Source: Dehalococcoidia bacterium | GTDB taxonomy: Bacteria > Chloroflexota > Dehalococcoidia > Dehalococcoidales > JAUWYK01 | NCBI GenBank assembly: GCA_030615865.1 | Contig: JAUWYK010000059.1 | Location: 1 to 12,403 of the forward strand | Direction: 5' to 3' | Length of the DNA stretch: 12,403 bases | Shown: piece by piece, positions 2,136 through 11,704 of the stretch | Position numbering within the stretch: the stretch's first letter is position 1 | How the letters are laid out: the number at the start of each line of letters is the position of its first letter | The notes under the pieces: generated by a model | What the model was told of the DNA's origin: nothing | The model's database searches: none | The model's input: only the letters and a program-made list of their open reading frames with translations | Translations under genes and position numbers: made by a program

Positions 2136-3596
2136 ATGCAGATAAAAGAAAAATTAAAGCAGGCGGTGGGAACTGAACTTGTTTCCGATAGTCCTGGGAC
2201 ACTCAAGGCTTACTCTAGGGATTACAGTCTTTTGCCACCCGGAATGTCCAATTATGCGGTACTGCCAAAATCGGCTGAAGAGGTGCAAAAAGTAATAAGA
2301 ATTGCTAATGAGCACTTGATCCCTGTCATCCCTTGTAGTTCTGAAGTTCATTTCACCGGCTCTACTATACCAAAGCAAGGTGGAATTATATTAGATTTGA
2401 ATAGGATGAACAGAATACCGGAGATTGATGAGAGGAATAGAAAGGCAAAGATTGAGCCAGGGGTAACCTGGAAGGAATTTCAAGCAGCACTTGGAGAGCA
2501 CAATTTTATGATGATGACTCCTCTCCTTCCTCATTCAAAGAAATCTGTACTCACAAGCCTCTTGGAGCGGGAGCCTTTAATAAATCCCAGATATGAATAT
2601 GGTGACCCCCTGTTGGCTATGGAGATAGTGCTGCCCAATGGCGATCTTTTTAAAACGGGCTCGGCCAGTGCCCCCGGATACCCGCAGAGCTTCTCTGAAG
2701 GCGCTCAGCCCCAGGGCCCTGGTACCATTGATTTCTATCGCCTCCTTCAGGGGGCACAAGGGACTATGGGAGTGGTAACGTGGGCAAATGTTAAGGTCGA
2801 GAACTTGCCCAAGATAAGCAAAACCTTCTTTATCCCTTTTCCCGAGATAGAAGATGCTATTGAGCCCATTTATCGAATTCAAAGGAGAAGGATTGGCTAT
2901 GAATGCTTCCTGATGGATAAATTCAATTTAGCTCTCATTGTTGCCGAAAGACAGCCTGAAGATTTTGAAAGCCTAATAGCGACTTTGCCCCCTTGGATAC
3001 TTATTTTAATATTGAGTGCGGCAGGCAGGAGACCTGAGGAGAGGATAGAATATGAAGAGGAGGCTTTAACAGAGATAATGAAGGTGGAGTTTCCCTTTTT
3101 GGAAATCTGGGAGGCTCTCCCCGGTGTTCCTGGATTAGAAATGCAATTACCGCAAATGCTAAAGGAGCCTTGGCCCGAAGAAGTAACTTATTGGAAGTTT
3201 CGTCATAAAGGTGCCTGTCAGGATTTATTCTGTATCACCACGCTTGATAGAGTGCCGCAATTTGTTACAGTGGTGGGTGAGATAGCAGGAAGGCATGGGT
3301 ATGATGTAATTGCTCTCGGACATTATGTACAGCCCATCGAATTTGGTGCCGGTTGCCACTGTGAATTTAATTTCTACTATGATCCGCAAAATCCTGTTGA
3401 AGTAGAGCGAATTAAAGTGCTGTATAGGGAGGCTATTGAGAACCTGTTAAATATGGGAGCGCTGTTTACTCGACCTTATGGCATATTATCTGACCTTGTG
3501 TATAGTCGAGCTACGAGTTACACCGTGACATTAAGGAAAATAAAGAACATTTTTGACCCTAATAATATAATGAACCCTGGTAACCTGTGCTTCTAA
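2136..3596 (+). CDS. FAD-binding oxidoreductase of the VAO/GlcD superfamily (first flavin subunit)
   Basis: This 486-residue protein has an N-terminal PCMH-type FAD-binding domain (about residues 38-225), with the usual YAVLPKSAEEVQKVIRIANE opening, ILDLNRMNRI, KIEPGVTW and the closing LLQGAQGTMGVVTWANVKV. A C-terminal substrate domain ends in FDPNNIMNPG, typical of GlcD, lactate dehydrogenases and 4-cresol-dehydrogenase-like enzymes. The family oxidises hydroxy-acids, phenols or alcohols with flavin; the substrate cannot be read from sequence. No signal peptide or membrane segment is seen. ATG at 2136 has AAAGGA about nine bases upstream. It is the first of three closely spaced genes with an Fe-S CCG protein and a second FAD oxidase, so electrons probably pass from this flavin to the clusters of that protein. 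It differs clearly from the third gene product, so this is not a recent duplication. Confidence 0.85.
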   Translation: MQIKEKLKQAVGTELVSDSPGTLKAYSRDYSLLPPGMSNYAVLPKSAEEVQKVIRIANEHLIPVIPCSSEVHFTGSTIPKQGGIILDLNRMNRIPEIDERNRKAKIEPGVTWKEFQAALGEHNFMMMTPLLPHSKKSVLTSLLEREPLINPRYEYGDPLLAMEIVLPNGDLFKTGSASAPGYPQSFSEGAQPQGPGTIDFYRLLQGAQGTMGVVTWANVKVENLPKISKTFFIPFPEIEDAIEPIYRIQRRRIGYECFLMDKFNLALIVAERQPEDFESLIATLPPWILILILSAAGRRPEERIEYEEEALTEIMKVEFPFLEIWEALPGVPGLEMQLPQMLKEPWPEEVTYWKFRHKGACQDLFCITTLDRVPQFVTVVGEIAGRHGYDVIALGHYVQPIEFGAGCHCEFNFYYDPQNPVEVERIKVLYREAIENLLNMGALFTRPYGILSDLVYSRATSYTVTLRKIKNIFDPNNIMNPGNLCF

Positions 3597-3605
3597 AGGG
3601 GAGAG

Positions 3606-4910
3606 ATGACAAAAATCAAAAAGGAATTTAATTTAGACGTAACCGATATTAATAATTTCAGATATGATGCGGAAAGATGCGTAGGATGTAAAGGCTGTGT
3701 TTGGGTGGATCATATATATATGCCCGGGGTTGAGTTCGGTATAAAGTGTCCCAGCCTGGCAAGGTATTCTTTTGATGCTTACGCCGCATACGGGCGAGAG
3801 AAGATTATCTTGGGACTGTTAGATGGCAAATATGACTATACTGCTAGGCTCTTGGACATCCTATACAAGTGCACTCTATGCGGAGCCTGTGATGCCGGAT
3901 GTAAGCGAAACCTTGATCTAGAGCCTCTACTTGTACTTGAAGCAGCCCGAGTAAAGTGTGTTCGAGATGGAAAGGGCCCCATGCCCGAACACAAGAAGAT
4001 AGCTGAGAACATAGACAACAGTCATAACCGCTATGGCTTATCCCAGGCTAACCGCTCCAAATGGCTGCCCCCGGATATCAAACCAGCCGCCAAGGCAGAC
4101 ATAGTCTATTTTGTCGGCTGTGCCTCTTCTTATATCCACACTGAGATAGCCCAGGCTACTGCCAGAATATTAACTAACACTAACACCAAATTTATGCTGC
4201 TGGACTCAGAGGAGTGGTGCTGCGGTTATCCCCTGTACTCCACAGGTCAGATTGACGCCTTCAAAAAACAGGTAGAACATAACATTGAGGCAGTCAAGAA
4301 ATCAGGGGCAAGCACGGTGTTGGTTAGCTGCGCTGAGGGGTATAAGACGTGGAAGGTGGATTATCCTAAGCTGCTGGGCAAATCTACAGATGACCTGGGT
4401 TTTAAAGTAATGCACCTGGTAGAGTATATTGACCAATTGATTAAGGATGGCAGTCTGAGGTTCAATAACCAGATAAATATGAAGGTAACCTACCACGACT
4501 CATGTAACCTGGGCAGGCTCAGCGAGCCCTGGATTCACTGGGAAGGCAGGAGAGGGAAATGGGGTGTTACCGAGCCGCCAAAACCGATTAGACGTGGAAC
4601 TTACGGTATCTATGAGCCACCAAGGGAAATTCTAAGGAGTATCCCTGGGATAGAACTTGTGGAGATGGTGCGAATAAGAGAAAATGCCTGGTGCTGTGGT
4701 GCGGGGGCTGGGGTAAGAGATGCATTTAGAGATTTCGCTTTGTGGTCGGCGGGTGAAAGGCTAAAGGAAGCAAAAACCACCGATGCTGAAGCTATAGTGG
4801 TTTGTTGCCCTCATTGCAAGGAAAATCTTGGCGAGTCAATCGAAGCAGGGAAGGAAAAAATCAAAGTTTACGATATTTCTGAGCTACTATATAAAGCGGT
4901 GAGGAAATAA
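3606..4910 (+). CDS. (Fe-S)-binding protein with two CCG domains (GlcF/HdrB-like electron carrier)
   Basis: This 434-residue protein should carry electrons from the flanking flavoproteins through Fe-S clusters to an unknown acceptor. The N-terminus has two cluster motifs: CVGCKGC at Cys25, 28, 31 with the fourth Cys delayed to Cys48 (KCPS), and a standard CTLCGACDAGC at Cys89, 92, 95, 99. Two CCG domains follow. The first has VGCASS (Cys172), WCCGYP (Cys205-206) and SCAEGY (Cys242); the second has HDSCNLGR (Cys300), WCCGAGAG (Cys363-364) and CCPHC (Cys400, 401, 404). CCG domains in HdrB and related proteins bind non-cubane or cubane Fe-S clusters. Between HDSCNLGR and YEPPREIL the second domain carries about 25 extra residues rich in Trp, Gly, Arg and Pro. 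Start ATG 3606 lies nine bases after the previous stop, with AGGGGAG directly before it. GlcF of glycolate oxidase is the closest familiar relative by layout. Confidence 0.87.
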   Translation: MTKIKKEFNLDVTDINNFRYDAERCVGCKGCVWVDHIYMPGVEFGIKCPSLARYSFDAYAAYGREKIILGLLDGKYDYTARLLDILYKCTLCGACDAGCKRNLDLEPLLVLEAARVKCVRDGKGPMPEHKKIAENIDNSHNRYGLSQANRSKWLPPDIKPAAKADIVYFVGCASSYIHTEIAQATARILTNTNTKFMLLDSEEWCCGYPLYSTGQIDAFKKQVEHNIEAVKKSGASTVLVSCAEGYKTWKVDYPKLLGKSTDDLGFKVMHLVEYIDQLIKDGSLRFNNQINMKVTYHDSCNLGRLSEPWIHWEGRRGKWGVTEPPKPIRRGTYGIYEPPREILRSIPGIELVEMVRIRENAWCCGAGAGVRDAFRDFALWSAGERLKEAKTTDAEAIVVCCPHCKENLGESIEAGKEKIKVYDISELLYKAVRK

Positions 4911-4929
4911 CCAAACCAGGAGGCTAAAA

Positions 4930-6510
4930 ATGGGCTTAATGAAAGAGGCTTATCAAGCATTAGAGTCAATAGTTGGTCCCGAGTATGTTTCAGAAGACCC
5001 GGTTGTATGCGAGGCTTACAGTCCGAGCCGAGGAGGACATGGCAAGGATGCGGCAGTAGAGACGGTATTAGGTGAAGTCCCTATTTGTGTCATCCTTCCC
5101 GGAAGCACCGAAGAGGTTCAGAAAATAGTTAAAATCTGCAATCGATACAAGATTTCTTTTGTTCCGGCAAGTACTTATTGGGTAACTCATGCTGGTCCAA
5201 GAGCTTCTAACGTACTGTTAATAGACCTTAAACGAATGAACCGGATGGAAATAGATGAAAAGAATATGTATGCCGTGGTTGAACCTGGCGTCGTTCTTTC
5301 GCAACTCCAAGAGCAAGCGATGAGGAGGGGATTATATATTACGGTAGGCGGAGGAGGGGCACAAGCTTCTGTCCTAGCTAACCTATTAGTCTGGTCTCTT
5401 TCTCCTCTTAACTATAAAAATGGCTTGCCTAATCGTCGGCTTTTAGGAGTTGAATGGGTCTCAGCGGATGGTGAGATACTTAGGCTGGGCTCACTTGCCA
5501 CCAGTAACAGTTACTTTTGGGGTGAGGGACCTGGGCCGGATCTTCGTGGCATCCTCAGGGGATACATTGGGTGGTTCGGAGGCTTGGGAATTGTGACTAA
5601 AATAGGAACAAAGCTCCTTCCCTTCCAGCCGGAGAGATTAGAACCAGTAGGTATCTCACCAGATACAACCCTTCAATTACCGACAAATAGGATGAGATGG
5701 TGTAACTTCACCATGCCTAGCCGAGAAGCCCTTGTTAACGCAATGTATGAGATAGGGAATAACGAAATAGGCGCAGCAGTGACCAAGGTACCCCTAATAT
5801 GGAGGTACAGAGCAAGAGCAAAATCAAAGGATGAATTTTGGAGGCTTTGGCAGAAATCTGGCAAAGAAGACGAGGTTGCCACCTTTCATATACTTCGTGT
5901 CTTGCTCATCGGTTATACATCCGAGAAGCAGCTTGAATATGAAGAGCGAGTTCTGATGGATATAATAAAGGAGTATGGGGGGGAGGCTAGAAGGACAAGA
6001 CAGACTGACGAATCTTGGCTTAAAAACGCCGATTCAGCGAGGATGTGGTTAACAGCAGGAACCTACATGTCAGTGTATGGTCATGTAGAGACACTCGCCT
6101 GCTCGCTTAAAGGGGGAGAGGCTTATGCCAAGCGTAAGCGCCAATATACCCCTCCATTAATGGATGACTTTGGAGAGCCGGGATGGTTCCAGCTAACCGA
6201 AAACGGGCATATGGGATACCTAGAGTTCCTTACCCACTGGGAGCCCTACGAGATAGATGAAAAGGGAAGGCACAGGGTGGATGAATGGTATTTTATAGCG
6301 GGACCAAAGTTAGACATAGAGAAAGGCCTTTATAACTTTTTCAATATCACCTATTCTCCTCTATACCTTGTAGGACCTGAATATGGCCCAAACTATCATG
6401 TATGGATGCTGAAGATAAAGGAAGCTCTTGACCCCAATGGAATTTCAAATCCTCCTTATCCTCGCTGTATTGATGAGCTTGTTGAGCGCTGCGATTGGCT
6501 GAAATATTAG
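4930..6510 (+). CDS. FAD-binding oxidoreductase of the VAO/4-cresol-dehydrogenase type (second flavin subunit)
   Basis: This 526-residue flavoprotein is the last gene of the three-gene operon. The FAD domain spans about residues 48-232: ICVILPGSTEEVQKIVKICN, LLIDLKRMNRM, YAVVEPGVVLSQL, the glycine run VGGGGAQASV (139-148) expected at the FAD pyrophosphate, and ILRGYIGWFGGLGIVTKIG. The C-terminal half ends in ALDPNGISNPPYP, matching the closing motif of VAO-type oxidases. AGGAGG at 4918-4923 lies six bases before the ATG, the strongest ribosome site of the operon. It shares the fold but little sequence with the 2136-3596 product. Compared with glycolate oxidase, where GlcE is a reduced FAD subunit, both flavin subunits here look full size. 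Hydroxy-acid, alkylphenol or aryl-alcohol oxidation are all possible; substrate is unknown. Confidence 0.85.
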   Translation: MGLMKEAYQALESIVGPEYVSEDPVVCEAYSPSRGGHGKDAAVETVLGEVPICVILPGSTEEVQKIVKICNRYKISFVPASTYWVTHAGPRASNVLLIDLKRMNRMEIDEKNMYAVVEPGVVLSQLQEQAMRRGLYITVGGGGAQASVLANLLVWSLSPLNYKNGLPNRRLLGVEWVSADGEILRLGSLATSNSYFWGEGPGPDLRGILRGYIGWFGGLGIVTKIGTKLLPFQPERLEPVGISPDTTLQLPTNRMRWCNFTMPSREALVNAMYEIGNNEIGAAVTKVPLIWRYRARAKSKDEFWRLWQKSGKEDEVATFHILRVLLIGYTSEKQLEYEERVLMDIIKEYGGEARRTRQTDESWLKNADSARMWLTAGTYMSVYGHVETLACSLKGGEAYAKRKRQYTPPLMDDFGEPGWFQLTENGHMGYLEFLTHWEPYEIDEKGRHRVDEWYFIAGPKLDIEKGLYNFFNITYSPLYLVGPEYGPNYHVWMLKIKEALDPNGISNPPYPRCIDELVERCDWLKY

Positions 6511-6789: not shown

Positions 6790-7701
6790 TTAGTAAGTTC
6801 GGGGCACTTTCCGCCCTGGATGTAACGGGTCAAATGCCCAGGGTTCCTCTGCTTTCTCCTTATCCAGCAACTCTATAGCTTCTCGTAATCCCTTACCACT
6901 GAGGCTTAAATACTTTTGGGTTGTGTCCAATCTGCTATGTCTCATTAGTTGTCTAACTGCTTCTGGATTAGCCCCCTTCTCAACTAGCTGTGTGCCAAAG
7001 TAGTGTCTGAGAGAATGGCAATAGATAGAAACCCCAGCCTTCCTGCTAAACCATTCAAACTTACCCGATATTGACGAAGGCTTGAGTCCAAAGAGGGATT
7101 GCTCTGGCTTCATATTCTTAATGTAGGGTCTGAGAAGTGTGGCAATTGTATCGTTCAGTGGAACTATACCGTCCTTTTCCCCTTTGCCTGCTCGGACAGT
7201 CAAGATACCTTGCTCAAGGTGAATATCCCCAACTCGGAGATTGGTAAGCTCTGTTCTGCGTAATCCCGTATTGACAGCTAGGTGGATTAGTAAGGTGTCC
7301 CTACGGGCTAGTCGTTTGTGAGTTGCCTTAGTTTCTATCGCTTTGATAAGTGCGTTAATGTCAGCTTCTTCTACATAAGGTGGTAGTCGTGCTGGCTGTT
7401 TAATCCTCATATCAAGCTCTTCTCCATACCACTTAAAGAATGGTTTGAGGACTGCCACATACCGAGCCAAAGTAGCAGTCTTGCGGTTGGCAAACTGGCT
7501 GAGAAATTGCTTACCCAATGCTGGCATTGGTGGGAACTGACCCAAAAACTCGGCAAAGTGCCTTAGTATCCTGCGGTCCTCATAGAGTCCCTTTGCCGAC
7601 CTGTGCCGACAGATAAGCTCGGCGTCGTAAGCCTCAAAAAGCTGGTCGTTTGTCATTTGCCTCAGCCTCAATCTTCTTTTGCCTTCCTCGCCTAGAAGCA
7701 T
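6790..7701 (-). CDS. Tyrosine recombinase / phage-type integrase (XerC/D-like)
   Basis: This protein should carry out site-specific recombination. From the ATG at 7701 it has 303 residues: an N-terminal SAM-like core-binding domain (about 15-105, with LYEDRRILRHFAEFLG and TLARYVAVLKPFFKWYGEEL) and the catalytic domain with all expected residues. These are Arg148 (TGLRRTEL), Lys173 (AGKGEKDG), His229 and Arg232 (HSLRHYFG), His255 (LMRHSRLD) and Tyr264 (TTQKYLSL), so it looks intact. The frame stays open upstream through the tRNA to a GTG at 7818, but those first codons are just the tRNA read as protein; ATG 7701 with ACGGGAA nine bases before it, or TTG 7707, is more credible. It lies on the same strand as the tRNA with its start about 60 bases past the tRNA 3' end. 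That is the usual arrangement of an integrase using the tRNA 3' end as attachment site. A second tRNA-end copy was not found in the window. Confidence 0.88.
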   Translation of the reverse strand: MLLGEEGKRRLRLRQMTNDQLFEAYDAELICRHRSAKGLYEDRRILRHFAEFLGQFPPMPALGKQFLSQFANRKTATLARYVAVLKPFFKWYGEELDMRIKQPARLPPYVEEADINALIKAIETKATHKRLARRDTLLIHLAVNTGLRRTELTNLRVGDIHLEQGILTVRAGKGEKDGIVPLNDTIATLLRPYIKNMKPEQSLFGLKPSSISGKFEWFSRKAGVSIYCHSLRHYFGTQLVEKGANPEAVRQLMRHSRLDTTQKYLSLSGKGLREAIELLDKEKAEEPWAFDPLHPGRKVPRTY

Positions 7702-7760
7702 TACCAAAAGTTCCCGTATTGGTAAGTCCTCTAGGTTATCGGATAGAAGTCCGACTTTAG

Positions 7761-7832
<72 letters not shown>

Positions 7833-7887: not shown

Positions 7888-8841
7888 CTATCTGGCCTCG
7901 GTAACATGCTTCTTTAATGCCTCAGGGAGTTTGCTGTTATCATTGGTAACCGCTGGGGTTATGGGTAGTTGACCATTTGCCGCTATAATAGCCATCCCTT
8001 CAGCACTCAGCAGAAAATCAACCCAGGCTATCGCCAATTCAGGATGAGTGGCACTCTTGGGTATCGTTACCCCATAAATTATCGGCTTGCCCCTTTTAAT
8101 CAGGGTTTCCCCCGGTTTCTTGCCGGCAATCTCAACCTGTGCCATAGCATAGTAATCCCTGAACTCCTCGCTGGATAGGTCAATCTCAACCGGTAACTCA
8201 ATAAAATTCAGCTTGTGCTGTTTGGCAACAGACACATACTCAAAAGCATAGTCTAGGTCACCAGATTCCAATAGAGCAATGAGGCCGACCGATTTTGGTC
8301 TCATCATCTCACCGGGAGCACCATAAAGCATATCATTTAACCCAGGCACACCATAATAGTCCTCAGCTAGTTGCCATACCATAAGGGTTCTATAGCCACA
8401 GGGGTCGTGGTCAGGGTCAGCGCGACCATATTTCACCCCTTCACGCTGCAGAATTTCATACCAATTGTCCTTACTAACCTCATCAGCAAATTGAGAGCTA
8501 TCGGTATAGGCAATAACCATGCGATTACAGGCAAAGGTTATGTACCAGTCAGTATACTCGGGAAACATCAACTCCGGAATAAGGGTATAATCGGCGGAAG
8601 CAACCACATCTGCCTCTCTGCTCAGCTCAGTAACCTTACGAATGCTAATCGAGCTACCTGCTGACTCTGCCCTTATCTCTACATCAGGATAGAGCTTATT
8701 AAACTCCTCACTTATCTGAGCAAAGGGTATGGTCAAACTGCCGGCATGAAATATGGTAAGGGCAACACCACCTGAACAGCTAGGCATCAGGCTCAATATC
8801 AGAGCCAAAACCAAAAATAGGCTTGTAGCTAATCGTTTCAT
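7888..8841 (-). CDS. wtpA: Tungstate/molybdate-binding lipoprotein of an ABC transporter (WtpA-type)
   Basis: This is the extracellular binding protein that captures tungstate or molybdate and delivers it to the permease. The 317-residue product has a basic N-terminus, a hydrophobic signal segment (about 5-20) and a lipobox-like MPSC with Cys22 as the likely lipid anchor. The mature part starts with LTIFHAGSLTIPF, as in ModA/WtpA. It contains the WtpA-type motif GRADPDHDPCGYR (139-151) and DYAFEYVSVA with Glu201. In archaeal ModA/WtpA structures an Asp and a Glu complete octahedral oxyanion binding, and the acidic residues here are candidates. ATG 8841 has AAGGAGG (8852-8846) four bases upstream; the TTG at 8844 is too close to it. 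It is the last gene of the wtpB-wtpC-wtpA run, 34 bases after wtpC. The WtpA motif suggests high-affinity tungstate use, but molybdate cannot be excluded. Confidence 0.88.
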   Translation of the reverse strand: MKRLATSLFLVLALILSLMPSCSGGVALTIFHAGSLTIPFAQISEEFNKLYPDVEIRAESAGSSISIRKVTELSREADVVASADYTLIPELMFPEYTDWYITFACNRMVIAYTDSSQFADEVSKDNWYEILQREGVKYGRADPDHDPCGYRTLMVWQLAEDYYGVPGLNDMLYGAPGEMMRPKSVGLIALLESGDLDYAFEYVSVAKQHKLNFIELPVEIDLSSEEFRDYYAMAQVEIAGKKPGETLIKRGKPIIYGVTIPKSATHPELAIAWVDFLLSAEGMAIIAANGQLPITPAVTNDNSKLPEALKKHVTEAR

Positions 8842-8875
8842 CAAACCTCCTTAATTTTGTGCCATATTCTGTTGA

Positions 8876-9922
8876 CTAAAAAATATGGACGGCTGATGCC
8901 TTAAAGGTTATGTAAACCTTTTGCCCTTCAGCCAGACCCATCTCCTCAAAGGAGCGACGGGTAACCAAACAGATAAAGTCTGGCGGAAGGGTAACTGTCA
9001 GATACAATGTCGACCCCTTATCAGCAATACTGGTAACAGTGCCACAAAACGAGTTACGAGCACTAGACCTGAGCGGCTCAGGGGAAATGAGAATATCCTC
9101 AGGTCGAACTGAGGCGTGGAGTTTCCCTCTAAGGTCAGTAACTACTATCAGCTCGGTACCTTCAGTGCGAAAGACGGTATTTCCATCATCTCTTTCTACC
9201 ACTTCACCGGCAAAGATATTCCTCGCCATAGCAAAGCGGGCAACAAACTCAGAGGCAGGCTGCCGAAATATCTGCTCTGGAGTCCCCACCTGCTTTATCC
9301 CCCCCTCACCTAAAACGGCAATGCGCTCGCCCAAAGCTACCGCCTCCTCAAAATCATGGGTAACATGAATAGTAGTCACCTTCAACTGGTTATGTATTTG
9401 GCGAAGTTCTTGTTGCACAGCCTCCCGACTTTCCGGGTCAAGGGCACTTAACGGCTCATCAAGAAGTAGCACCTCGGGCTTGATGCTCAGTGCCCTGGCC
9501 AGAGCTACCTTCTGCCGCTCCCCCCCACTCAGTGTGTCAGGACTCCTATCCAGAAGGTGGACTATCCCCAGCAAATCGGAAAGCCAGTTAAGCGTCTGTG
9601 TCACTTGCTGATGGGGCAGCTTATGAAGCCTCAAGCCAAAAGTGATATTCTCGGCTACTGAAAGGTGAGGGAACAGGACATGGTCTTGGTAAACAATACT
9701 TATGTTTCTTTTTTCTGGCTCAAGTCGTGTCACCTCCCGTCCCCCAAGCCATATCTCCCCACTCTTAACTGGATATAGACCAGCGATAGTCTCTAGGAGC
9801 ACCGTCTTGCCAGACCCAGTAGGTCCCAGGACAACAAAATACTCGCCCTCGTCTACAGTTAAATTAACATCTTCAAGCAAGAAATGCCCCAGGTCAACAC
9901 GCAGATTCTTTATCTGTATCAT
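8876..9922 (-). CDS. wtpC: Tungstate/molybdate ABC transporter ATP-binding protein with TOBE domain (WtpC/ModC-type)
   Basis: This cytoplasmic ATPase drives oxyanion import. From the ATG at 9922 it has 348 residues with Walker A GPTGSGKT (33-40), Q-loop Gln79 (VYQDHVLFPH), signature LSGGERQ (131-137), Walker B LLLDEP (152-157), D-loop SALD and switch His189 (HVTHD). A C-terminal region of about 110 residues (HASVRPEDILI, FCGTVTSIADKGS, to the end) matches a TOBE domain, which in ModC can bind molybdate or tungstate and inhibit transport. The ATG overlaps the permease stop by four bases (ATGA), indicating translational coupling. An extension to 9976 is open but lies inside the permease gene and adds no domain sequence. 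Gene order permease-ATPase-binding protein is unusual compared with wtpABC but keeps all three parts. Confidence 0.9.
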   Translation of the reverse strand: MIQIKNLRVDLGHFLLEDVNLTVDEGEYFVVLGPTGSGKTVLLETIAGLYPVKSGEIWLGGREVTRLEPEKRNISIVYQDHVLFPHLSVAENITFGLRLHKLPHQQVTQTLNWLSDLLGIVHLLDRSPDTLSGGERQKVALARALSIKPEVLLLDEPLSALDPESREAVQQELRQIHNQLKVTTIHVTHDFEEAVALGERIAVLGEGGIKQVGTPEQIFRQPASEFVARFAMARNIFAGEVVERDDGNTVFRTEGTELIVVTDLRGKLHASVRPEDILISPEPLRSSARNSFCGTVTSIADKGSTLYLTVTLPPDFICLVTRRSFEEMGLAEGQKVYITFKASAVHIF

Positions 9923-10713
9923 GTCTTCTGCCCCCGATACACCAATGTTCTGAGAACTACAAAGATGATGACACATAACAGGATAAGTAGCACCGCTACC
10001 GGCCTGGAGTACGCCAAACCATAAGTCTCAAACCTCTCAAAGATGAGAGTAGGAGCTATCATCGGATGATATGCCAGAATAATAACTGCACCAAACTCGC
10101 TTATCCCCCTAGCCCACATCATGATGTTGCCAGCGACGATGCTTCGCCATGCCAGGGGAAAGGAAACTCGGAAAAAGGACTGCCATGGTGAGGCACCAAG
10201 GGTACGAGACACCTTCTCCAGTCTGACATCCACCTTCTTAAACCCCTCTTTAGCCGAATCAATCAAAAAGGGGACGCTAACGAAGAGCATAGCAATAACA
10301 ATACCAGCAATAGAGTCAACAAAGTCGATTCCTATCAGGTGGAAGCCCTTGCCAACCAGAAAATTACGACCAAAAACAAAGAGGAGGGCGATACCGGCTG
10401 CAGTATGTGGCACCACAATAGGCACATCAATAAGCCCCTCCACCAGGTTCTTGCCTGGAAAATCAAATCTGGCTAACAGATAGGCTAAAGGCACCCCCAG
10501 GAAAAAGCCAATGGTAGTAGCTATCAAGGCAGCATACAGAGTGAGCCAGATAGCGCTAATGACCTTACTATCAAGAGCAGTATCCAGCAGTATCTTGGGG
10601 TCAGAGGCAACTATCATCTTAAATAGAGGTACGATAATAAATAGAAAAATAACCAACCCGAGCAGAACAAAGGTAAATGTCATCCTGTTAGTGATAAACC
10701 ATTTTTTAGCCAA
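9919..10713 (-). CDS. wtpB: Tungstate/molybdate ABC transporter permease (WtpB/ModB-type)
   Basis: This membrane subunit forms the oxyanion channel, probably as a homodimer. The roughly 264-residue protein has about six hydrophobic segments, the first being FVLLGLVIFLFIIVPLF and the last VAVLLILLCVIIFVVL. It carries the EAA loop that docks the ATPase (about 166-190, with EKVSRTLGASPWQSFF and FPLAWRSIVAG). I chose the TTG at 10713 because AGGAGG (10725-10720) lies six bases upstream. The longer frame from ATG 10752 has no ribosome site, starts inside the terminator tail of the leader and places the AGGAGG within the gene. The gene overlaps wtpC by four bases. It is the first gene after the Moco-type riboswitch and terminator, so expression of the whole transporter should be set there. 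Confidence 0.88.
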   Translation of the reverse strand: MAKKWFITNRMTFTFVLLGLVIFLFIIVPLFKMIVASDPKILLDTALDSKVISAIWLTLYAALIATTIGFFLGVPLAYLLARFDFPGKNLVEGLIDVPIVVPHTAAGIALLFVFGRNFLVGKGFHLIGIDFVDSIAGIVIAMLFVSVPFLIDSAKEGFKKVDVRLEKVSRTLGASPWQSFFRVSFPLAWRSIVAGNIMMWARGISEFGAVIILAYHPMIAPTLIFERFETYGLAYSRPVAVLLILLCVIIFVVLRTLVYRGQKT

Positions 10714-10753
10714 AAACCACCTCCTGACATTGCTATTTGCTGCGCTTGGCATT

Positions 10754-10781
10754 AAAAAAACACTTCAAAAGGAAGTGCTTG
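10754..10781 (-). terminator. Riboswitch-controlled intrinsic terminator before wtpB
   Basis: On the minus strand CACTTC (10777-10772) pairs with GAAGTG (10766-10761) around CTTTT, followed by seven T (10760-10754). Up to three more pairs can form with the T-run. It sits between the riboswitch and the wtpB ribosome site, where premature termination would shut off the transporter. Its 5' arm, CAAGCACTTCC, can instead pair with GGAGAGCTTG of the riboswitch 3' strand. Confidence 0.85.
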
Positions 10782-10800
10782 AAAATAGACCTATGACTAC

Positions 10801-10910
10801 CCACAAGCTCTCCTTTCCAAAACACGGGAGGCATCGCCGTTTCCAACGAAACCCTATCGGCCAATCTCCATTGGTATACCTTCAGGAGAATAGGCTCGGA
10901 GACAAGTGTT
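10801..10910 (-). ncRNA. Molybdenum-cofactor (Moco/Tuco) riboswitch candidate in the wtpBCA leader
   Basis: Reading the minus strand from 10910, the leader contains CTCCGAGCC, then hairpins, then GATGCCTCCCGTG (about 10835-10823), then AAAGGAGAGC (about 10815-10806). From memory these match the conserved blocks of the Moco RNA motif. A closing stem forms from CAC and TCTCC at the 5' side with GGAGA and GTG at the 3' side. An inner arm pairs GCC and TCTCC with GGAGA and GGC. A second arm is GTTTC-GTTG-GAAAC, closed by GCC/GGC. The motif is known upstream of cofactor synthesis and Mo/W transport genes and senses the molybdenum or tungsten cofactor. Here it precedes a terminator and wtpB, so cofactor binding should switch transport off. 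Whether it is the Moco or the Tuco variant is not clear to me. Confidence 0.8.
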
Positions 10911-10925
10911 TAATTTTTAATTGAT

Positions 10926-10931
10926 ATTATA
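10926..10931 (-). promoter_or_regulatory. -10 box of the wtpBCA operon
   Basis: The minus strand reads a perfect TATAAT at 10931-10926, in an AT-rich stretch about 16 bases before the riboswitch. The predicted start near 10919 would put the whole riboswitch in the transcript. No good -35 box is seen; TTACTG at 19-base spacing is the best and is weak, so an activator may be needed. Confidence 0.65.
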
Positions 10932-11015
10932 TCATATTTTCCGGTGTAACCAGTAACCTCCTCACTTCCTCTTCCTACTCCCTAGAGCAGACCCTACCCG
11001 GCAACTCAGGCGCTT

Positions 11016-11049
11016 TTTCACCGCCGTGAAACTTTAATGAAACTTAAAC
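11016..11049 (+). promoter_or_regulatory. Hairpin and 11-base direct repeat in the divergent intergenic region
   Basis: TTTCAC-CGCC-GTGAAA (11016-11031) is a perfect 6-bp inverted repeat. Overlapping it, GAAACTTTAAT (11028-11038) and GAAACTTAAAC (11039-11049) are two adjacent 11-base units identical at nine positions. One-helical-turn direct repeats are typical of OmpR/PhoB-family binding sites. It could control the 66-residue gene to the right, with TATAAA at 11099 as a possible -10 box, or the transporter to the left. The remaining bases from 10932 to 11129 show nothing else I can support. Confidence 0.45.
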
Positions 11050-11129
11050 GCCAGTTTTATGAGTAATTAATTTCAGCAGCCTAAGATAGAAGTGCGCCTA
11101 TAAATAACTTGGGTAAGTAGAGGAGGACA

Positions 11130-11330
11130 ATGATAATCAAAAGCGCTATTAAGTGCCCAAACAATATGGTTATGGTATTTGATGAGGACGAGGAACAAAT
11201 CCCTGAATACCAGGGTCAATACGAAGAAGTAAAGGAACGCATCCTAAAAGATGCTCCGCCAGAGGCAATATTTGGTCAGTGGATTGATTATGAGACTGAT
11301 ATAAGAACAGTTCCGAGAGAAGAATGGTAA
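11130..11330 (+). CDS. Hypothetical 66-residue acidic protein
   Basis: A good ribosome site (GAGGAGG, about 11120-11126) precedes the ATG at 11130. The product begins MIIKSAIKCPNNMVMVFDED and continues with many Glu/Asp residues, QIPEYQGQYEEVKERI, an Ala/Pro turn and a C-terminal aromatic segment FGQWIDYETDIRTVPREEW. It has one Cys (residue 9), no signal peptide and no membrane segment, so it should be a small soluble cytoplasmic protein. I do not recognise a family with a known function. The amphipathic middle part and well-formed ends suggest a real gene rather than a chance frame. The LuxR-type gene follows 59 bases later on the same strand, so the two may be co-transcribed, possibly linking this protein to regulation. 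Confidence 0.75.
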   Translation: MIIKSAIKCPNNMVMVFDEDEEQIPEYQGQYEEVKERILKDAPPEAIFGQWIDYETDIRTVPREEW

Positions 11331-11363
11331 TCAACTAGCTAAGCTCTAACCGGGAGACGAGCT

Positions 11364-11393
11364 TTGAATAAAAATAGTGGTGATAAAAATTGA
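11364..11393 (+). other. Nine-codon upstream reading frame overlapping the LuxR-type start
   Basis: TTG at 11364, with GGGAG seven bases upstream, encodes MNKNSGDKN (counting TTG as Met). It ends at TGA 11391-11393, overlapping the TTG at 11390. Either it is a leader peptide that feeds ribosomes into the next gene, or it is the true N-terminus separated by a one-base loss in the A-tract at 11385-11389. One extra A would fuse the two frames. The GGGAG lies in the loop of an AAGCTC/GAGCTT stem (11341-11364). Confidence 0.3.
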
Positions 11394-11704
11394 GAAACAA
11401 CCCCATTTTCACGGCTGGAGTGCACCAAGCACTATCCGAGCCAGATGACTTCGGATTGCTGAACTGTGTCTCAACCAAGGACACTGCTCAGAACACAGCA
11501 TCTATAGCCCTCACCCCCAGGGAGTCCCAGATTCTAAGTTACATTGCTGACGGTAACTCAAACAAGCAAATCGCTTACATCCTGCAACTTAGTGAGCAGA
11601 CAATTAAGAACCATGTCAGTACCATCCTACGTAAGCTAGATGCTAATGCCAGAGCTCACGCTGTCGCCCTAGCCATAGGCAACGGCTGGATTTCAGTCAA
11701 ATAA
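11390..11704 (+). CDS. LuxR/GerE-type helix-turn-helix transcriptional regulator, single-domain
   Basis: The 104-residue protein has a C-terminal GerE-type DNA-binding domain (about 40-100): LTPRESQILSYIADGNSNKQ, then IAYILQLSEQTIKNHVSTIL as the recognition region, then RKLDANARAHAVALA. The first 40 residues show no receiver or ligand-binding domain, so it resembles the small orphan LuxR-type proteins rather than a NarL-type response regulator. It should bind promoter DNA, probably as a dimer; its signal is unknown. The frame has a stop at 11384, so TTG 11390 is the first possible start, yet no good ribosome site precedes it. The better site serves the overlapping nine-codon frame, raising the chance of translational coupling or a frameshift. 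The PAS-sensor gene follows about 210 bases later. Confidence 0.85.
   Translation: MRNNPIFTAGVHQALSEPDDFGLLNCVSTKDTAQNTASIALTPRESQILSYIADGNSNKQIAYILQLSEQTIKNHVSTILRKLDANARAHAVALAIGNGWISVK

Follow-up and report, generated by a model that had tools for sequence, protein, structure and literature searches.

Genomic context of the wtp leader

The window, that is the whole stretch of 12,403 nucleotides from a Dehalococcoidia bacterium analysed here, carries on its minus strand a molybdenum/tungsten transport operon whose leader matches the Moco/Tuco riboswitch family. Reading along that strand, the elements follow one another in this order:

10926..10934, minus strand: extended -10 promoter element TGATATAAT, with TATAAT at 10931-10926 (read from the sequence)
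10793..10913, minus strand: Moco/Tuco riboswitch aptamer, RF01055, P3-less type (cmscan, 74.6 bits; own covariance model, 106.4 bits)
10754..10780, minus strand: intrinsic terminator with a 9-bp stem (one G-U), loop CTTTT and seven T (sequence, scan)
10719..10725, minus strand: Shine-Dalgarno sequence AGGAGGT of wtpB, past the terminator (sequence)
9919..10713, minus strand: wtpB, tungstate-type ABC permease with a TTG start at 10713 (NF040839, 324.3 bits, cut-off 340; Pfam BPD_transp_1)
8876..9976, minus strand: wtpC, ABC ATPase with a TOBE domain (NF040840, 425.3 bits, cut-off 440)
7888..8844, minus strand: wtpA, tungstate/molybdate-binding protein (NF003196, 377.1 bits, cut-off 355; TIGR03730, 334.1 bits, cut-off 242.75)

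WtpA exceeds two curated cut-offs; WtpB and WtpC have tungstate families as their top match, yet score slightly under the equivalog cut-offs. The location of wtpB-wtpC-wtpA directly downstream of the aptamer is that expected for RF01055. Homologues of wtpA are termed selective tungstate transporters in PMC2408646, and the paper cited there has both tungstate and molybdate in its title. The ten best WtpB loci, with 76-88% identity to the WtpB of the window, all come from metagenome-assembled genomes (MAGs) named Dehalococcoidia or Dehalococcoidales, and of nine related genomes eight encode a protein of the aldehyde ferredoxin oxidoreductase (AOR) family and all nine a molybdopterin oxidoreductase domain.

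The perfect TATAAT claimed by an earlier, sequence-only reading of this DNA is present within TGATATAAT (10934-10926), and the transcript is expected to start near 10919-10918. No good -35 element was found for TGATATAAT, and a promoter and terminator scan of 10600-11400 omits this promoter. Counted with a hexamer list set by the analysts, extended -10 sites are present in 12 of 35 wtpB leaders, at a distance of 12-55 nt before P1; three control stretches have none (0/35, 0/35 and 0/32).

Downstream of wtpA lie a tRNA-Met (CAT) gene and then a tyrosine recombinase gene, whose longest open reading frame starts inside the tRNA (6790-7832, minus strand). The related locus L002 also has a tRNA after wtpA (6922-6993), followed by two other open reading frames and no recombinase within the 1.8 kb examined; the recombinase may therefore mark an integrated element in the window. 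On the plus strand (2136-6510), two genes for FAD-linked oxidoreductases flank one for a cysteine-rich Fe-S protein and are adjoined by fdhD and a gene with a MOSC domain; the first oxidoreductase, the one scanned of the two, has a FAD_binding_4 domain and is GlcD-like.

Identity and architecture of the aptamer

The sequence-only reading had recognised the leader from the family consensus, and the Rfam search that it proposed bears this identity out: RF01055 matches 10913-10793 of the minus strand over all 135 model positions with 74.6 bits (E 6.8e-17), about twice the gathering threshold of 36. The three conserved blocks that it had named are found on the minus strand in the order CTCCGAGCC, GATGCCTCCCGTG, AAAGGAGAGC. 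A covariance model built in this study scores the aptamer at 106.4 bits, a value that includes the window itself as one of the 39 rows used in building. The parts of the aptamer are as follows:

10898..10902, minus strand: P1 5' strand TCTCC (alignment and sequence)
10885..10895, minus strand: P2 5' strand (cmscan, alignment, sequence)
10860..10869, minus strand: P2 3' strand (cmscan, alignment, sequence)
10855..10859, minus strand: P2-P4 junction CGATA, 5 nt, without a P3 stem, hence Tuco type by the 2008 rule (alignment to the covariance model)
10829..10854, minus strand: P4 hairpin with GAAA tetraloop at 10843-10840 (alignment, sequence)
10817..10828, minus strand: P5 (CC...GG), whose 8-nt loop exceeds the commonest form by one base (covariance-model alignment)
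10809..10813, minus strand: P1 3' strand GGAGA, common to P1 and the antiterminator (fold and sequence)

In the alignment of the window and 38 relatives, 92.0% of the cells of the aptamer structure are paired, against a mean of 76.4 in shuffles; 23 of 30 pairs change on both sides, and any of the five measures used was reached by 0 of 500 shuffles. Versions of the structure slid along this alignment pair in 39-50% only, and P1, P2, P4 and P5 all show covariation, as is required of the family. The tetraloop receptor expected in the P2 bulge of the family takes the form CCUAAG/UAUGG. The P2 letters of the window (CCTGAAG...AATGG) differ from it, as do those of several relatives, and the GAAA tetraloop is present.

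Whether the aptamer has a P3 arm, a point raised by the sequence-only reading, was decided by alignment to the covariance model, which types it as the P3-less 'Tuco' form. Among 185 model matches (some loci occur twice) the P2-P4 junction is bimodal, with either 4-8 nt or at least 19 nt, and a P3 hairpin is formed in 75 of these rows. The extra base in the P5 loop was considered as a sign of decay or error and rejected, because P5 has the same length of 12 in 14 of the 185 rows, window included; it is 11 in 128. Two other aptamers, L019:1671-1874 and L025:3660-3848, are enlarged by some 70-85 bases inserted at the P2 tip. The insert holds TTTTTCGTACTAGCGGAAGG-like repeats that resemble sequence just after the terminator of the L019 leader, which would fit the entry of a repeat element into a loop that tolerates it.

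Terminator and alternative pairing in the window

The terminator with seven T claimed earlier lies 28 nt after P1. Its arms are AAGCACTTC (10780-10772) and GAAGTGTTT (10766-10758) around the loop CTTTT, and the T run occupies 10760-10754, its first three residues also pairing in the stem. It is one of four terminator-like sites in the scan of 10600-11400, for which shuffled sequences give a mean of 0.7. Part of the terminator can alternatively pair with the aptamer through two further segments:

10804..10816, minus strand: antiterminator 5' half AAAGGAGAGCTTG (free fold; core conserved in relatives)
10768..10781, minus strand: antiterminator 3' half CAAGCACTTCCTTT, which overlaps both the 5' arm and the loop of the terminator (fold; relatives)

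In this helix, AAAGGAGAGCUUG of the aptamer (10816-10804) pairs with CAAGCACUUCCUUU of the terminator (10781-10768). Six pairs AAAGGA/UCCUUU are joined by one further G-C pair, and beyond an A-A mismatch come five more, GCUUG/CAAGC; one base is bulged. The pairing of GGAGAGCTTG with CAAGCACTTCC put forward in the sequence-only reading holds at nine of ten positions (one G-U), with an A-A mismatch at the other, but it is only the inner part of a better helix that extends 5' to AAAGGA/UCCUUU. Its description of GGAGAGCTTG as the closing strand of the aptamer is right for GGAGA, which pairs in P1, and not for the rest of GGAGAGCTTG.

With RNA energies, the ligand-free minimum-energy fold is the antiterminator at -53.0 kcal/mol (-52.8 kcal/mol with the antiterminator pairs enforced), and the fold with aptamer and terminator, at -45.4 kcal/mol, lies 7.6 kcal/mol above it. 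Stepwise growth of the transcript by 4 nt shows P1 at lengths of 108-132 nt; a different fold follows at 136-140 nt, and the antiterminator is present once 144 nt are reached. Two results count against so simple a switch. A terminator fold without P1 (-50.3 kcal/mol) lies merely 2.7 kcal/mol above the free minimum; and when the aptamer pairs or P1 are enforced, the best fold of the window still leaves the terminator open, in one of the foldings because the 5' leader is paired to the 3' arm of the terminator. This 8-bp pairing of AAACACUU (10911-10904), seen in full-length folds of the window, was rejected as a conserved part of the system: its shuffle rank in the window is 0.01, but a rank of 0.05 is passed by only 4 of all 103 leaders, 2 of the 31 wtpB ones among them.

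Taken in the window alone, the strength of the antiterminator is not significant against shuffles or control terminators, since its -13.5 kcal/mol is reached in 25 of 100 shuffles that keep the dinucleotide composition and, among 200 control terminators sampled, in 11.5%. The case for it therefore rests on the relatives.

Conservation of the expression platform

When identical aptamers were merged, the 185 model matches gave 171 unique RNAs, a few of them cut by contig ends. A terminator was found 5-70 nt after P1 in 103 of these, at 15-35 nt in 95 of the 103, and none was found at 5-70 nt in the other 68, some of which lie near contig ends. An exact complement of 6 nt or more to the aptamer core is found in the terminator 5' arm or loop of 50 of the 103 leaders, including 21 of 31 wtpB and 19 of 34 tupA-like leaders, whereas control terminators elsewhere in the same loci contain such a complement to the consensus core in only 14 of 222 cases (Fisher p 7e-18 for all leaders and 2e-14 for wtpB, relatedness not being removed from these values). 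The complement remains in 44 of 96 leaders when identical terminator arms are collapsed, and the terminator 3' arm is complementary to the core in only 3 of 103. The alternative pairing, whose conservation in related wtpB leaders the sequence-only reading had made a test of its proposal, is thus far commoner there than in the controls, although 10 of the 31 leaders lack the 6-nt complement. It is rarer in the presence of P3, occurring in 14 of 42 P3-bearing and 36 of 61 P3-less leaders.

Folding results for the relatives are mixed support, as minimum-energy folding ignores kinetics. Among free folds, the antiterminator appears in 12 of the 31 wtpB leaders and in 22 of 103 leaders overall, where shuffled hairpins give 5.8% (of 155) and 5.4% (of 515) respectively; of the leaders bearing P3 only 2 of 42 show it. 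Against it, the terminator forms without ligand in the free fold of 19 of 31 wtpB leaders and 77 of 103 overall. The shuffle test over the 103 leaders gives a modest effect, with a mean z of -1.26 and 34 of 103 leaders ranking among the best 5 of 100, and the pairing beats 95% of control terminators in 37 of 103.

The leader thus has what a terminating riboswitch needs, an intrinsic terminator between aptamer and gene and a mutually exclusive antiterminator on an aptamer strand, and the P3-less Moco/Tuco RNA is very probably a transcriptional OFF switch of the wtpBCA importer. With little cofactor present, the conserved AAAGGAG strand of the aptamer would be captured by the 5' arm and loop of the terminator, which then could not form, and the polymerase would read on into wtpB. 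When cofactor is bound, P1 (TCTCC/GGAGA) would hold the shared strand, the terminator would form and import of tungstate or molybdate would stop. The OFF direction, also proposed in the sequence-only reading, follows from anatomy: P1, which the ligand would stabilise, and the antiterminator compete for the same GGAGA. Aptamer membership, the terminator, the alternative pairing with its conservation and the operon are results of computation, to which we add, by inference, ligand binding, the regulatory direction and the metal.

Distribution and gene context in Dehalococcoidia

Of 294 genomes sampled from the class, 91 contain Moco RNAs above the cut-off. Among WtpB loci of named genomes, 37 of 80 have an RF01055 match, though not in every case immediately before wtpB. 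Four matches in class genomes were left out, three with scores under the cut-off (G033, G105, G234) and one, in G218, close to a contig end; G070, also under the cut-off, was regained by our own model as L196:2809-2914 and counted. Eight further matches (G028, G056, G080, G110, G124, G168, G212, G227) are represented by named loci with the same coordinates.

The first gene downstream of the 171 unique RNAs is TupA-like in 57 cases, WtpB in 36, WtpA-like in 12, ModA-like or similar in 11, MoaA in 8, a molybdopterin-domain or linked gene in 6, Fe-S in 4, FdhA in 4, AOR in 2 and another gene in 25, with 6 RNAs lacking an open reading frame. These labels were in part scanned and for the rest assigned by blastp clustering. 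Scans covered 14 of the 57 TupA-like proteins, all far under the TupA cut-off (148-212 vs 400 bits), hence '-like'; 2 of the 36 WtpB, besides that of the window; 3 of the 12 WtpA-like, two above a cut-off; 4 of the 11 ModA-like, one of which gave no family; 5 of the 8 MoaA, each above a MoaA cut-off; and 2 of the 4 FdhA.

Tandem Moco RNAs on one strand were also seen, nine pairs less than 400 nt apart among 143 genome-derived hits (G194:C3, G216:C97, G117:C155, G139:C127, G246:C22, G060:C22, G211:C120 and G186:C20, G117 having two) and an additional pair in L034 (3188-3306 and 3372-3491). They precede TupA-like, WtpA-like, Fe-S, periplasmic-binding and other genes. In L181, a P3-bearing Moco RNA (315-467) stands before a gene for a NiFe-hydrogenase small subunit (617-1738), not itself a molybdenum or tungsten enzyme; hydrogenase genes behind tandem Wco riboswitches are mentioned in the available text of PMC9481103. 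The FdhA gene behind a P3-bearing RNA at L183:1912-2481 forms an open reading frame of only 190 aa, which covers the beginning of the formate dehydrogenase-N alpha model; the truncation may reflect an in-frame TGA read as selenocysteine.

The P3 stem and the choice of metal

An AOR-family protein was taken here as a rough sign of tungsten metabolism. Such proteins (PF02730) are encoded in 196 of the 294 class genomes, by a search that is also positive in the E. coli control, and the incompleteness of MAGs adds noise to the counts. The comparison of P3 with AOR covers 143 RNAs, which come from 90 of the 93 genomes in which a match was found. Of the genomes whose RNAs all lack P3, 42 encode an AOR-family protein and 1 does not; where all RNAs bear P3 the numbers are 23 and 7 (Fisher p 0.007), and where both types occur 10 and 7. 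Counted by RNA, 66 P3-less ones have and 9 lack AOR in their genome, against 44 and 24 of the P3-bearing ones; among TupA-like leaders the numbers are 32 and 1 against 14 and 10. In the table by leader type, G008 is not marked AOR-negative, which touches one WtpB row; the TupA-like rows were used here.

P3 has changed at least 9 times on the TupA-like tree and at least 5 times on the WtpB tree, both quick trees, and no link to AOR appears in the 3-4 supported independent pairs, which are too few for a firm answer. The evidence on P3 as a clean marker of the metal is divided: the genome counts fit, the gene associations are mixed and the tree-aware pairs are underpowered. In one instance sister WtpB genes (support 100) differ, P3 being present at L083 (the same place as L009) and absent at L008.

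P3-less RNAs were proposed in 2008 to sense the tungsten cofactor (PMC2408646, as far as its text was available). It is conceivable, at somewhat less than even chances, that RNAs without P3 are sensors dedicated to the tungsten cofactor, and that the gains and losses of P3 flip the metal specificity of one importer operon. With a probability likewise short of one half, the riboswitch and its mechanism may be the same but the ligand the molybdenum cofactor, or the cofactor with either metal, so that the absence of P3 is no mark of tungsten. The lability of P3 and the few independent pairs speak for this second view, as does gene context: P3-bearing aptamers precede tungstate-type importers, against a simple P3 rule (24 of 57 TupA-like and 8 of 36 WtpB genes), and P3-less ones precede 7 of 8 moaA genes. 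The AOR counts (42 of 43 only-P3-less against 23 of 30 only-P3-bearing genomes) and the near-perfect correspondence between P3 absence and tungsten reported in 2008 (PMC2408646, available text) speak against it. The same source describes a P3 deletion in the E. coli RNA, which lost regulation in every condition tried and therefore did not yield a change of specificity. No later paper announcing a test of P3 in metal specificity was found, as judged by titles and the beginnings of abstracts.

Alternative modes of control

Transcriptional termination on cofactor binding is preferred to three other modes. It is unlikely that the leader acts also or mainly on translation or mRNA stability, with the hairpin a weak terminator. 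The moaA member of E. coli was proposed to mask a ribosome binding site (PMC2408646, available text), and no terminator was found for the 68 unique RNAs mentioned above, but in the window the Shine-Dalgarno sequence (10725-10719) lies past the U-tract and outside both alternative folds, and an RNA-seq study of 2025 attributes termination to the E. coli member as well (PMC12121620, as far as available). An ON switch, in which ligand prevents termination, is very improbable: nothing more than the general existence of such switches favours it, stabilisation of P1 through the shared GGAGA would free the terminator arm, and an importer of the cofactor's metal would be expected to be repressed by the cofactor. 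Equally far-fetched is an unregulated attenuator, or a chance terminator beside a decayed aptamer, for although the pairing in the window is not significant by itself, the core letters of the aptamer are intact, its score is high, and promoter, terminator position and complementarity recur across relatives.

Relation to known riboswitches

The window RNA shares with the RF01055 Moco RNA of Regulski et al. 2008 (PMC2408646, available text) the sequence, the P1/P2/P4/P5 architecture with its GAAA tetraloop and the gene association; a downstream terminator is present as in some members, and P3 is lacking as in 58 of the 176 members of 2008. Chloroflexi are absent from the organisms in the abstract of that paper, and the word 'Chloroflexi' was not found in the main text available. 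From the P3-less subgroup described there, the operon of Syntrophomonas wolfei for MPT and transport likewise lacks P3 and serves transport of molybdate or tungstate, with putative terminators after its first two RNAs; the RNA of the window differs in being single rather than triple, in preceding a wtp-type importer and in belonging to a host of another phylum. A Moco riboswitch of the same bacterial class and RNA family precedes the biosynthesis genes moaA and moaC in three Dehalogenimonas strains (PMC13390414, available part), whereas that of the window precedes an importer. In the accessible parts of the respective papers, a census lists 62 MOCO motifs (PMC3766115), and frequent association with transporters and tandem Moco and Wco riboswitches are described (PMC9971707, PMC9481103).

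The riboswitch of the window is thus most likely an ordinary but well-supported new example of a known family, which shuts an importer by ending transcription when cofactor is plentiful. It is a clean case of a P3-less RNA with a terminator ahead of a tungstate importer. If the P3-less form is indeed a tungsten-cofactor sensor, sister WtpB genes with opposite forms, such as L083 and L008, would be natural test pairs for the 2008 Moco-versus-Tuco proposal, and homologous importers with or without P3 in their riboswitches could test whether one stem decides between the molybdenum and the tungsten cofactor.
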